A stretch of 64,000 bases of DNA from Bradyrhizobium septentrionale (lineage in GTDB: Bacteria; Pseudomonadota; Alphaproteobacteria; Rhizobiales; Xanthobacteraceae): assembly GCF_011516645.4 (NCBI RefSeq), contig NZ_CP088285.1:4234501-4298500 (forward strand), given 5' to 3'. Made by a program: the position numbers and the translations under genes. Position 1 is the stretch's first letter. Each line of letters begins with the position of its first letter. The notes below the pieces were generated by a model. That model saw nothing but the letters and a program-made list of their open reading frames with translations. It searched no databases and was not told where the DNA came from. This document shows, one piece after another, positions 51,157 through 56,031 of the stretch.

Positions 51157-52089
51157 ATGAGCGACGTTTCCGCCCGCGTTGCCGACTCCACAGGCAACTG
51201 GGTGGACACTCATGCGCCGGTCTGGTCGCGGCCCTATCTGCGGCTTGCGCGCTACGACCGGCCGATCGGCTCCTGGCTGCTATTGATGCCGTGCTGGTGG
51301 TCGGCGGCGCTCGCCGCCGGCGTCGCGCATGATGTCCGCTCCTTGCCGCTCGTCGTGCTGCTGTTCTTCATCGGCGCCTTCGTGATGCGCGGCGCGGGCT
51401 GCACCTGGAACGACATCACCGATCGCGATCTCGACGCCAAGGTCGAGCGCACTTGGTCGCGGCCGATCCCGGCCGGGCAGGTGACGGTGACGCAGGCGGT
51501 GGTCTTCATGGTGCTGCAGGCGCTGATCGGGCTTGCGGTGCTGCTGCAGTTCAACCGCTTTGCGGTGATGACCGGCATCGCTTCGCTTCTGATCGTCGCG
51601 ATCTACCCGTTCATGAAGCGGATCACCTGGTGGCCGCAGGTCGTGCTCGGCCTCGCCTTCTCCTACGGCGCGCTGATGGGATTTGCGGTGACGCTCGAAC
51701 GCATCGATGCAACTGCGATTGCGCTCTACGCCGGATCGATCGCCTGGGTGATCGCCTACGACACCATCTACGCCCATCAGGACGCCGAGGATGACGCGCT
51801 GATCGGCGTCAAATCCACCGCGCGCCTGTTCGGCGCACGCACCCACCGCGCGCTGGTGATCTTCTATGGTCTCGCCGTGCTGCTGATCGGCGCCGCGTTC
51901 GCGCTCGCGGGCGCACGCTGGCCGGCCTGGATCGGCCTTGCAGCATTTGCGCTGCATCTCGCCTGGCAGGTCCGCCGGCTCGACACCAGCGATCCCGCGC
52001 TCTGCCTGCGCATCTTCAAGTCCAACCGCGACGCCGGCTTCATCCTGTTCGCGAGCCTTGTCGTCGATGCGGTGATGCGCGCGGGGTAG
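51157..52089 (+). CDS. ubiA: 4-hydroxybenzoate polyprenyltransferase
   Basis: The 310-residue integral membrane prenyltransferase has about eight to nine helices with the two Asp-rich Mg-diphosphate motifs, NDITDRDLDAKVERT (about 86-100) and YDTIYAHQDAEDD (about 203-215). It attaches the polyprenyl tail to 4-hydroxybenzoate, the second step of ubiquinone synthesis. It follows the exported protein by 25 bases and may share its transcript. Confidence 0.95.
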   Translation: MSDVSARVADSTGNWVDTHAPVWSRPYLRLARYDRPIGSWLLLMPCWWSAALAAGVAHDVRSLPLVVLLFFIGAFVMRGAGCTWNDITDRDLDAKVERTWSRPIPAGQVTVTQAVVFMVLQALIGLAVLLQFNRFAVMTGIASLLIVAIYPFMKRITWWPQVVLGLAFSYGALMGFAVTLERIDATAIALYAGSIAWVIAYDTIYAHQDAEDDALIGVKSTARLFGARTHRALVIFYGLAVLLIGAAFALAGARWPAWIGLAAFALHLAWQVRRLDTSDPALCLRIFKSNRDAGFILFASLVVDAVMRAG

Positions 52090-52323: not shown

Positions 52324-52350
52324 GTCGTCCTGGCGAATGCCAGGACCCAT
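52324..52350. repeat. REP half (family D), left partner
   Basis: TCCTGGC-GAAT-GCCAGGA (52328-52345) is a 7-bp REP stem followed by cccat. An inverted partner lies at 53786-53812 (TCCTGGC-TTTC-GCCAGGA), and AACCAC-atgcg-GTGGTT is next to it. The pair is split by the IS110-type element. Confidence 0.75.
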
Positions 52351-52365
52351 ATGTGGACGGCCCCC

Positions 52366-52605
52366 GTGGCACAAGAGCTGTTTGGTGAGATCGGATCGCT
52401 TGCATCCATATGTCCGGCCTTTTGAGTGCGATCGAATGGATCGCTGGCCAAGATGGTTTGCGCGATGCGAGTTCCAAACAACCACGCGACCTGTTGGCGG
52501 CCGATGGGTCCTGCGGACTGTCTCGCATCGTTGCTCGATCGATCGCTCCATCTGCTCTTGCAGCTCCGGTCGGTCGGCGAGCGAGCCCGCCGGCTGGCCA
52601 ATCTA
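52366..52605 (-). ncRNA. Candidate guide (seek/bridge) RNA of the IS110/IS1111-type element
   Basis: This noncoding segment lies 3' of the transposase, where IS1111-type elements encode their guide RNA. Read as minus-strand RNA it contains CAGGACCCAT (bases 52513-52504). This 10-mer is identical to the plus-strand sequence at 52341-52350 that abuts the left end of the element. A 6-mer ACCATC (52457-52452) equals the first bases of the right flank (53713-53718), but that match is short and may be chance. Function is inferred from the family. Confidence 0.6.
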
Positions 52606-53643
52606 TTAGGCGGCGGCTGTCATGGGATTCATCCGTGCCGCCTCGTAACTCTCGCCCGTCGCCATCAGCTTCCAGGCGATACGGGCCACTTTGTTGGCGA
52701 GCGCCACGGCCGCAAGCTTCGGCGGCTTGCGCTTGATCAGCGCCAGCAGCCAGCGCGAGTGATGACCGCGTCCCCGCCCGGCCTGCTGGATCACCGCTGT
52801 GGCCCCGACCACCAGCAGACGGCGCAGGTCCTCATCGCCCGCCCGCGTGATCTTGCCAAGCCTGGTCTTGCCAGCGGTGGAGTGGTCCTTGGGTGTCAAT
52901 CCCAGCCAGGCCGCAAAATGACGACCAGAACGGAACGCGCGCGGATCAGGTGTCTTCATCACCAGCGCGGTTGCAACGATCGGACCGACCGAGGGGATCT
53001 GAGCCAAGCGCCGGCCCGTGGCATCGGCGCGGTGCCAGGCCATCAGCTTGGCCTCAATCGCCTCCAACTCACCCTCGAGCCTGATGCGCTCCCGGCCCAG
53101 CACCACAAACAGCTCGCGCGCCAGAACGGGAAGCGTCTCGTCCTGCGCAATCCGCGCCAGCAGTGGTTCGATCGCGTCCAATCCCTTGGGTGCGATCAGG
53201 CCATACTCCGCCGCATGGCCGCGTATCGTATTGGTCAGCTGGGTGCGCCGGACGATCAATCCGTCGCGGACACCCATCAGCATCAGCGCAGCCTGCTGCT
53301 CGGCCGTCTTCACCGGCACGAAGCGCATGCTCGGCCGGCTCATCGCTTCACACAGACCTTCTGCATCCCGCCCGTCATTCTTGTTCCGCATCACGTAGGG
53401 CTTAACCAATTGCGGTGCCATCAGCTTCACCTCGTGACCGAGCTTGGAAAGCTCCCGCGCCCAATGTTGCGAAGCCCCGCATGCCTCCATCCCGATCACG
53501 GTCGGCGGCAATTTGGCGAAGAACTCCAGCACCTGTTTGCGCGACAGCTTCTTGCGCAGCGCCACCTGCTCCCTCGCATCAACCCCATGCAACACAAAAA
53601 TATACTTCGACGTATCAATCCCAATGCGGATAATCTGGTTCAC
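52606..53643 (-). CDS. IS110-family DEDD transposase/recombinase
   Basis: The 345-residue protein begins with GTG. The N-terminal RuvC-like DEDD domain shows D10 (GIDTSK), E53 (IGMEACG), D90 and D93 (KNDGRDAEG). The C-terminal transposase_20 domain shows QIPSVGPIVATALVMKTPDPRAFRSGRHFAAWLGLTPKDHSTAGKTRLGKITRAG, including the Ser expected to be catalytic (HSTAGK). IS110 recombinases use a structured noncoding RNA to select targets. The frame is intact. Confidence 0.95.
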   Translation of the reverse strand: MNQIIRIGIDTSKYIFVLHGVDAREQVALRKKLSRKQVLEFFAKLPPTVIGMEACGASQHWARELSKLGHEVKLMAPQLVKPYVMRNKNDGRDAEGLCEAMSRPSMRFVPVKTAEQQAALMLMGVRDGLIVRRTQLTNTIRGHAAEYGLIAPKGLDAIEPLLARIAQDETLPVLARELFVVLGRERIRLEGELEAIEAKLMAWHRADATGRRLAQIPSVGPIVATALVMKTPDPRAFRSGRHFAAWLGLTPKDHSTAGKTRLGKITRAGDEDLRRLLVVGATAVIQQAGRGRGHHSRWLLALIKRKPPKLAAVALANKVARIAWKLMATGESYEAARMNPMTAAA

Positions 53644-53785
53644 GGACGGCTCCCATGTATGAGATCTAGACAACCTCATTCTGGCACACTGATGCCGTAG
53701 GGGGCCGTCCACACCATCAACCCCAAATCTGAATTGTTGCGCGACGCTGGGGCCGCGATACCGGTCACAACCACATGCGGTGGTT

Positions 53786-53812
53786 ATGGGTCCTGGCTTT
53801 CGCCAGGACGAT
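53786..53812. repeat. REP half (family D), right partner
   Basis: atgggTCCTGGC-TTTC-GCCAGGAcgat is the inverted counterpart of 52324-52350. Together they form a REP pair interrupted by the IS110-type element. It lies 24 bases beyond the stop of the DUF6101 gene. Confidence 0.75.
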
Positions 53813-54636: not shown

Positions 54637-56031
54637 GTGAACCCTTCACCATCTGCATCGTCGTCGCGACACGGCGATTCCTCCGATCTGTTCGACCAAT
54701 CCGGCCTCACCGACCTCGCGCAGCGTCTGGTCGAGGCCGCAAGGCGCGCCGGCGCAGACGCGGCCGATGCGATCGCGGTCCGCGGCGTCTCGCAAGGCGT
54801 CGAGGTGCGCGACGGTCGGGTCGAGGAAACCGAGCGCTCCGAAGGCGATGACGTGGGGTTGCGGGTGTTCGTCGGTCAGCGCCAGGCGGTGGTGTCGACC
54901 AACGACATCAGCGGCGACGGCATCGCAAAGCTTGCCGAGCGTGCGGTGGCGATGGCGCGCGTGGCGCCCGACGACAAATATGTCGGGCTGGCCGATCCTG
55001 CGCTCCACGCGCATGATTTCCCCGATCTCGATCTGCTCGACCGCAAGGTCCCGACCACGGCGGAGCTCGAGCAGCGCGCCATCGAGGCGGAGGCTGCGGC
55101 GCTCGCGGTCAAGGGCGTCAGCAAGTCCGGCGGGGCATCGGCCTCGACCGGGATCGGCGGGATGGTGCTGGTGACCTCGACCGGCTTTCACGGCTCCTAT
55201 CTGCGCTCCAGCCACGGCATCTCGACGACCGCGATTTCCGGTGAGGGCACCGGCATGGAGCGCGACTATGATTTCACCAGCGCGCCGCATGGGTCCGATC
55301 TCGATTCACCCGCTTCCGTCGGCCGCAAGGCCGGCGAGCGCGCAGTGGCACGGTCGAACCCGCGCAAGGTCGAGACCTGCAAGGTGCCCGTGGTGTTCGA
55401 TCCGCGGGTTGCCGGCTCGATCGTCGGCCATGTCGTCGGCGCCATCAACGGCGCCTCGATCGCGCGCAAGACCAGCTTCCTGAAGGACAAGCTCGGCGAG
55501 CAGCTGTTCTCCAAAAATATCCGCATCATCGATGATCCCCTGCGCGTACGCGGCCTGCGCTCGCAGACCTTCGATGCCGAGGGCGTCAAGGTGAAGCGAA
55601 CGGCGCTGATCGACGAGGGCGTGCTGACGACCTGGGTGCTGGACTCGGCGACCGCGCGCGAGCTCGGCCTGGTCACGACGGGGCACGCGCATCGGGGCGT
55701 GTCGTCCTCGCCGTCGCCCGGCACCTATAATCTGCATCTCGAGCCCGGTGCGGTGACGCCGAAGGAATTGATCTCCGACATCAAGCAGGGCTTCTATGTC
55801 ACCGACCTGATCGGTTCCGGCGTCAACGGTGTGACCGGCGATTACAGCCGCGGCGCGTCCGGCTTCTGGATCGAGAATGGCGAGATCACCTATCCGGTCA
55901 GCGAAGTGACCATCGCCGGGCATCTGCTGCCGATGTTCAAGTCGTTGGTCGCCGCCAACGATCTGGAATTCCGCTACGGCGTCAATTCGCCGACGCTGCG
56001 CATCGAGGGCCTGACGCTTGGCGGACGCTGA
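54637..56031 (+). CDS. pmbA: TldD/PmbA (TldE) family protein
   Basis: The 464-residue protein has PmbA-type blocks: GVEVRDGRVEETERSEGDDVGLRVFVGQ, VVFDPRVAGSIVGHVVGAINGASIARKTSFLKDKLG, STFAGR-like TTGHAHRGVSSSPSPGTYNLHL, and VTIAGHLLPMFKSL. PmbA pairs with TldD to make a protease that opens peptide antibiotics and antitoxins such as CcdA; the metal-binding HExxxH belongs to TldD and is absent here as expected. The N-terminal 20 residues are a Ser-rich extension. It overlaps the next gene by 14 bases. Confidence 0.92.
   Translation: MNPSPSASSSRHGDSSDLFDQSGLTDLAQRLVEAARRAGADAADAIAVRGVSQGVEVRDGRVEETERSEGDDVGLRVFVGQRQAVVSTNDISGDGIAKLAERAVAMARVAPDDKYVGLADPALHAHDFPDLDLLDRKVPTTAELEQRAIEAEAAALAVKGVSKSGGASASTGIGGMVLVTSTGFHGSYLRSSHGISTTAISGEGTGMERDYDFTSAPHGSDLDSPASVGRKAGERAVARSNPRKVETCKVPVVFDPRVAGSIVGHVVGAINGASIARKTSFLKDKLGEQLFSKNIRIIDDPLRVRGLRSQTFDAEGVKVKRTALIDEGVLTTWVLDSATARELGLVTTGHAHRGVSSSPSPGTYNLHLEPGAVTPKELISDIKQGFYVTDLIGSGVNGVTGDYSRGASGFWIENGEITYPVSEVTIAGHLLPMFKSLVAANDLEFRYGVNSPTLRIEGLTLGGR

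Follow-up and report, generated by a model that had tools for sequence, protein, structure and literature searches.

An IS1111-family element of Bradyrhizobium with a predicted seekRNA for insertion at the edge of a REP sequence

We have analyzed a 64,000-nucleotide stretch of Bradyrhizobium septentrionale DNA (the window), in which a complete IS1111-type element abuts a REP sequence. With a probability of about 0.93, we interpret it as an IS1111-family element whose noncoding region (NCR) would encode a seekRNA (bridge RNA) guiding insertion at the REP edge. One internal loop of this RNA would hold two short guides and, together with the RNA, the DEDD recombinase would place the circular element, in a single orientation, at the edge of a CGTC-type REP, GTGGTT^ATGGGTCCT (the caret separates the left from the right half-site). 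The anatomy of the element, its site and orientation, the lack of a target duplication, the guide-target complementarity and covariation and the conserved RNA fold are all supported by the compared sequences. The CGTC type follows the tag-based naming of REPs in PMC3733652.

Anatomy of the element and its copies in the host genome

The features on which the analysis relies are the following.

52351..53718, minus strand: complete IS1111-type element, 1368 bp including both extensions (from the subterminal inverted repeats and comparison with uninterrupted REP sites)
53712..53718, minus strand: left terminal extension GATGGTG, 7 bp
53700..53711, minus strand: left subterminal inverted repeat, 12 bp, TGGACGGCCCCC (transposase strand)
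52606..53643, minus strand: intact DEDD transposase/recombinase, 345 aa, GTG start (PF01548 and PF02371)
52366..52605, minus strand: downstream NCR, 240 bases, from the stop codon to the right repeat
52462..52531, minus strand: conserved core of the predicted seekRNA, with outer stem, inner stem TCCG/TGGA, two-guide internal loop and apical stem (alignment A1, RNAalifold, pair counts)
52504..52513, minus strand: T guide CAGGACCCAT, the complement of the right half-site's top strand (REP arm ATGGGTCCTG)
52480..52485, minus strand: B guide GTGGTT, with the same sequence as the preferred left half-site, whose bottom strand it would pair with
52448..52457, minus strand: conserved 3' loop ACCATCTTGG, possibly pairing with GATGG of the left extension (donor)
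52354..52365, minus strand: right subterminal inverted repeat
52351..52353, minus strand: right terminal extension CAT, 3 bp
52326..52350, plus strand: target REP arm CGTCCTGGCGAATGCCAGGACCCAT, right half-site, CGTC-type REP
53719..53738, minus strand: left half-site, the left flank of the window copy, ending in AGATTTGGGGTT, with 1 mismatch to the B guide
53780..53810, plus strand: uninterrupted other arm of this REP pair, beginning GTGGTT^ATGGGTCCTGGC

The element is located in a 10.4-Mb genome between genes for UbiA (51157-52089) and PmbA/TldD (54637-56031), and its closest relatives among the matches listed are in Bradyrhizobium records. An earlier note on this DNA had described a 13-bp inverted repeat bounding the element, an intact DEDD transposase and 240 noncoding bases 3' of it. 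All three were found, the perfect repeat measuring 14 bp (52352-52365 / 53700-53713), the minus-strand transposase ORF spanning 52606-53643 and the noncoding segment 52366-52605. The limit set at 53712 had to be revised to 53718, since on the transposase strand the left repeat is preceded by 7 bp (GATGGTG) and the right repeat followed by 3 bp (CAT). The 12-bp repeats (TGGACGGCCCCC) with these two extensions agree with the IS1111 layout described in PMC11187229 (subterminal inverted repeats of about 11-13 bp, extensions of 7 bp left and 3 bp right). Also in line with this family, the longer noncoding region lies downstream of the transposase gene (240 bases, vs 70 bases from the transposase start to the start of the left repeat). 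A simple consensus scan for a joined-end promoter gave no good sigma-70-like match (best 8/12 inside the left end and 7/12 across the junction).

The transposase carries the motifs GID (D10), GMEA (E53) and NDGRDA (D90/D93), and we take D10, E53 and D90/D93 to be its DEDD residues. The protein matched the NCBIfam model NF033542 (“IS110 family RNA-guided transposase”) with 307.8 bits and, among PDB sequences, the ISCro4 and IS621 transposases. Its DEDD N-terminal domain is followed by the PF02371 C-terminal domain, and its 345 aa fall within the length of about 330-350 aa given for IS1111 transposases (PMC11187229). The sequence GLTPKDHSTA at residue 248 corresponds to the IS1111 motif GL-P----S/TG in its TA variant, TA being reported as an occasional replacement of S/TG (PMC11187229).

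Of 24 matches to the element listed for the host genome, five are full-length copies; when compared from one outer repeat end to the other (1362 bp), none has more than 6 differences from the window copy. All five copies found have the same junction and orientation, contain the guide and differ in their outer flanks. Their right flank is ATGGGTCCTGGC followed by the REP palindrome, and their left flanks end in GGGGTT (window copy), GTGGCT, GCGGTT, GTGGTT and GTGGTT; the window copy thus shows one mismatch between its B half-site, GGGGTT, and the guide GTGGTT. Because uninterrupted GTGGTT^ATGGGTCCTGGC sites occur elsewhere in the host genome, insertion created no target duplication. This feature and the fixed orientation at one target (5/5 own copies) are those of IS1111 elements. 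REPs often form inverted pairs, with arm starts about 78 bp apart when uninterrupted (window positions 52351 and 53785; L024-L027). The window copy occupies the GGGGTT arm of such a pair, and the better-matching GTGGTT arm is empty.

The ten-base identity noticed earlier, CAGGACCCAT at 52341-52350 (+) and 52504-52513 (-) within the noncoding region, was reproduced, and its expected number of occurrences by chance in this region on both strands, 0.00055, agrees with the earlier estimate of less than one in a thousand. The NCR contains two guide segments directed at both target strands, the top-strand match lying 5' of the bottom-strand match (T before B) within a conserved loop, as in seekRNAs and bridge RNAs; T before B is the order reported for IS1111 seekRNAs (PMC11187229). 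The hexamer ACCATC, which the earlier note had proposed for the right side and already called unconvincing, was rejected as a target guide: these bases are not target DNA but complement the left extension, GATGGTG, of the element itself. The second guide is GTGGTT at 52480-52485 (-).

The REP sites of the host genome comprise 34 ATGGGTCCTGGC (T type) vs 144 ATGGGTCCCGGC (C type). The guide has an A at the corresponding position, which pairs with the T type, and all five copies are at T sites (hypergeometric 2.0e-4; test chosen after seeing the sites). By contrast, 76 GTGGTTATGGGTCCCGGC sites, which match the B guide and, apart from a C at this position, also the T guide, are uninterrupted. A T before ATGG was present at 5/5 occupied T-type sites vs 8/29 other T-type sites (0.0046; post hoc test). 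At least three further IS1111-type elements with other guide programmes are present in this genome (L028-L032, L035; about 45% transposase identity). Of three such element types, a T match was seen in 3/3 and a B match in 2/3, both counted without a chance control.

Guide-target covariation among relatives

At least 122 of 195 same-genus genomes contained relatives of the element (E<=1e-60). We have compared 127 elements, namely 100 stretches from among the matches listed (a non-random hand choice favouring multi-copy families), 22 loci of relatives and the 5 own copies. Removal of 12 elements without one recognizable repeat left 115. The duplicates L092, L102, L103, L105 and L114, together with L020 (which matched over residues 1-172 only) and L138 (slot gap), were then taken out, leaving 108. 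Insertion points were fixed by the repeat and the 7/3 rule, blind to the guides. The T slot was located from the 10-mer of the earlier note and the B slot by visual inspection of the aligned sequences, both in the window element, and the slots were then tested on all elements. The permutation set consisted of 36 guide pairs with one site each, drawn from the 108 copies with the own copies included.

The NCR alignment revealed two hypervariable slots within a conserved frame. The T slot had 289/324 identities with its own sites, compared with 183±9 after permutation (maximum 221), and the B slot 171/216, compared with 85±7 (maximum 112); none of 10,000 shuffles reached either value. In clade D, the fixed 3-bp rule set the right flank 2 bases too far in, which lowered the T score in this test. 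The REP-targeting subset, defined by a site starting with ATGGGTCC, comprised 67 copies and 17 guide pairs; here, too, the B slot exceeded the permuted value, with 76/102 vs 46.6±4.5 (0/20,000). Only R[3]-R[8] and L[-6]-L[-2] showed covariation (z 5.2-8.8), and the neighbours outside showed none; L[-1], R[1] and R[2] were nearly fixed. Of the ten matching bases noticed earlier, six are thus at covarying positions (R[3]-R[8]). R[0]-R[2] belong to a nearly invariant core without covariation, R[0] included, and the tenth matching base, R[9], does not covary and probably matches by chance. When the best copy of each pair was considered and wobble allowed, T reached at least 8/9 positions in 31/36 pairs, B at least 5/6 in 29/36 and both in 25/36; no more than 4/6 B positions paired in 7/36 pairs and no more than 7/9 T positions in 5/36. 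Taken with the sites of the own copies, this 36-pair test, in which guide variants matched their own flanks far better than exchanged ones, supported the earlier proposal that the element is programmed for a chromosomal REP family. The same guide segment was not seen at unrelated flanks among the five host copies found, which share both guide and REP junction.

The targets vary widely across clades, examples being AAAATT^ATGCGCCAA for L011 (Rhizobium), TTTCTT^ATGCAATTT for L013 (Ensifer) and GTCCCT^ATGCCGGGA for L021 (Mesorhizobium). Seven same-genus copies target TCTCGT^ATGAACCGA, one of them reading ATAAACCGA and one ATGAACCGT.

Three further clades have sites of their own. Clade D, a sister clade with about 54-55% transposase identity, appears to have SRAP start codons as its programmed target, the site being ATGT^GCAATCT, which encodes M-C-N-L-Y-S. 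By right-flank reading, 18/21 copies (9/12 + 9/9) are at a SRAP start (L144, L145, L148, L150, L152, L154, L157, L161, L162, L200, L201 and L204-L210), with some of the genes broken or shortened; the exceptions L147, L149 and L153 are located elsewhere. PF02586 was confirmed in two SRAP genes, beside L162 and L152 (L196, L198); a 66-residue piece of one SRAP gene had no Pfam match, and a longer reading did match. Intact starts with the SRAP-site sequence occur in the genomes G008 and G111. Clade C (about 58%) comprises seven copies from seven genomes (L146, L151, L156, L158, L159, L160, L163) at GGGCTCTCGT^AT(G/A)AACCG(A/T)GCCGC, with nearest flanks alike and a different wider context. In clade E (L164-L176, about 50%), the extensions are GATGCTG on the left and CAC on the right, vs GATGGTG/CAT, and several sites around TCCGCTT^ATGGCCCATAGCGGAC have a palindromic appearance and may represent another intergenic repeat.

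The 67 REP-group copies also allowed single guide bases to be compared with their sites. For the targets GTGGTTATGGGTCCT / GTGGTTATGGGTCCC, an A guide is predicted to prefer T and a G guide to accept both. A guides were found at T in 9/9 copies, and G guides at C in 53/58 and at T (wobble) in 5/58 (Fisher 4.7e-8, related copies not being independent). T is also the base at the sites of two additional A-guide copies (L202 and L203). The six A-guide copies outside the host genome say little by themselves, because all come from one genome, G142, in which T-type sites are the majority (57 TATGGGTCCTGGC, T type, vs 39 TATGGGTCCCGGC).

A closer comparison was provided by the genome G118, in which the mutually identical elements L083 and L084 show 4 differences from L085 over 1374 positions. 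Two of these differences are the second and third B-slot bases (GTGGTT in L085, GGAGTT in L083/L084), and since the sole coding difference is silent, the transposases are identical (345 codons compared). L083 is inserted at GGAGTT, L084 at GGAGCT and L085 at GTGGTT, and the remaining intact sites of this genome are 0 GGAGYTATGGGTCCY vs 62 GTGGYTATGGGTCCY. The probability of drawing both GGAG sites by chance from the 64 sites is 5e-4 (test chosen after seeing the sites). The guide change goes with the site change, a strong natural correlation with what would be retargeting. Pairing is not complete in every copy: L081 equals L077 except for one T-slot base, with which its site does not pair, and the outer B positions are tolerant, since many CTGGTT, CAGGTT and CGGGTT slots sit at GTGGTT/GTGGCT sites. 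Six copies of one element of G118 (L086-L091, 82% identity) occupy separate REP sites, with one TAA each in the matched transposase; possibly these were spread in trans, or the frame is misplaced.

These data bear on other explanations of the REP association. If the recombinase protein alone recognized the REP, the NCR match being accidental or a by-product of shared ancestry, the identical transposases of L083 and L085 would not be expected to use different sites that follow their guides, shuffled pairings would not lose the match even within the REP-targeting group, and covariation would not stop sharply at the slot edges. Closely related elements do share sites, and therefore part of any match is inherited; moreover, the RNA itself is a prediction. 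We consider this explanation highly improbable, and just as improbable a recognition of structure instead of sequence, with the hairpin or cruciform of the REP as the target. REP arms are indeed palindromic, each of the five own sites abuts one, and 54/67 REP-group sites have an exact 6-bp stem partner within the next 90 bases. However, loop length at occupied sites varies widely (at most 8 in 35 of these 54 and longer in 19), 13/67 sites are without an exact 6-bp partner (some with imperfect stems), the single-base T/C preference and the B-side preference track sequence and not the stem, and targets outside REPs, among them SRAP gene starts, are used by relatives.

Hardly more probable is a transcript from the NCR that mainly regulates transposase expression, with the REP complementarity serving regulation. 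There is a precedent in ISPpu9, for which regulation of tnp by two sRNAs has been reported (PMC8450116), but regulation does not predict two opposite-strand slots that covary with insertion flanks, and a regulatory role and a targeting role are not mutually exclusive. Guidance by a seekRNA is the explanation that we favour, and retargeting would accordingly follow the guide rather than the protein.

Predicted RNA fold and 3' loop

The seekRNA predicted under this explanation was modelled on alignment A1, with 26 representatives, in which the internal loop has the T slot on its 5' side and the B slot on its 3' side. In the stems of this alignment, 95.9% of the cells pair and seven pairs are changed on both sides; 26 cells are changed on both sides yet paired, a number reached in 0/500 shuffles. 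The covariation score was 0.278 vs 0.160±0.011 (0/500 shuffles), although relatedness among the sequences can by itself raise a score above that of shuffles. The folding energy of the window strand was not unusual (z -0.89), and the structural case therefore rests on the compensatory changes. No Rfam family was matched at gathering thresholds.

A pairing of the conserved 3' loop (CCATC) with the left extension (GATGG), the loop acting as donor guide, is conceivable, but we regard it as rather doubtful. CCATC occurs with GATGG in 61/108 copies, and in clade E GATGC occurs with GCATT in 13 copies. Copies with GTTGG (19) and GCTGG (12) retain CCATC and mispair at one base, and three further copies fit worse. 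In the L031 and L032/L035 types of the host genome, compared without a chance control, the CCATC-loop pairing fails at the fifth base.

Significance and relation to known systems

The mechanism would be that of published seekRNA/bridge-RNA elements, from which transcription of the RNA, its binding by the protein, the circular intermediate and catalysis are presumed here, and the value of the present case lies in unusually clean natural evidence of a guide code and of retargeting. On balance, we lean towards viewing the Bradyrhizobium IS1111 branch as a natural guide library, in which retargeting by 1-2 bases in an 11-position bipartite code would track REP alleles (A with T-type, G mostly with C-type) and would also have been redirected beyond REPs, including to SRAP start codons, so that guides and host repeats would coevolve. 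RNA-guided IS1111 transposition would thereby be extended to an abundant genus of soil bacteria and symbionts, and a reason would be given for these elements adjoining REPs. Guide specificity can be tested here on natural material, from copy to copy: REP subfamilies with and without insertions are told apart by a single guide base, and new sites accompany a change of two guide bases in elements whose protein is the same. The guide positions that matter are now delimited, a result of relevance to programmable recombinases.

For elements of this kind, the mechanism, its natural reprogramming and the targeting of REPs have been published already. The literature considered comprised PMC11187229, PMC11208160, PMC1525189, PMC3733652 and PMC5082802. 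Among the publications listed, we found none on this Bradyrhizobium element, which does not disprove that one exists; the word “Bradyrhizobium” is absent from the main text of PMC11187229 and from the text of PMC1525189.

ISPpu9, ISPpu10 and ISRm19, as presented by Tobes and Pareja (2006, PMC1525189), are likewise IS110-type elements with REP-specific insertion, one of them in a rhizobium, and are described there by their sites and not by guide RNAs. IS621 of the IS110 group has, according to Durrant et al. (2024, PMC11208160), a bridge RNA with a bipartite internal-loop guide directed at opposite strands, as predicted here, and it shares REP elements among its targets and a related recombinase. 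Unlike the present element, its NCR is upstream and its guide order reversed, and it has only a 2-3-bp repeat and an explicit donor-binding loop. Also similar are ISEc11, ISPa11, ISKpn4 and ISPst6, the IS1111 elements with seekRNAs of Siddiquee et al. (2024, PMC11187229). For those elements, the RNA was sequenced and transposition assayed, whereas the case for the present one is comparative; it differs in its target, a Bradyrhizobium CGTC-type REP, and in its guides. In common they have the subterminal inverted repeats with 7/3 extensions, an NCR downstream of tnp, the T guide before the B guide and no target duplication, and ISPa11 likewise inserts into a REP (PMC11187229).
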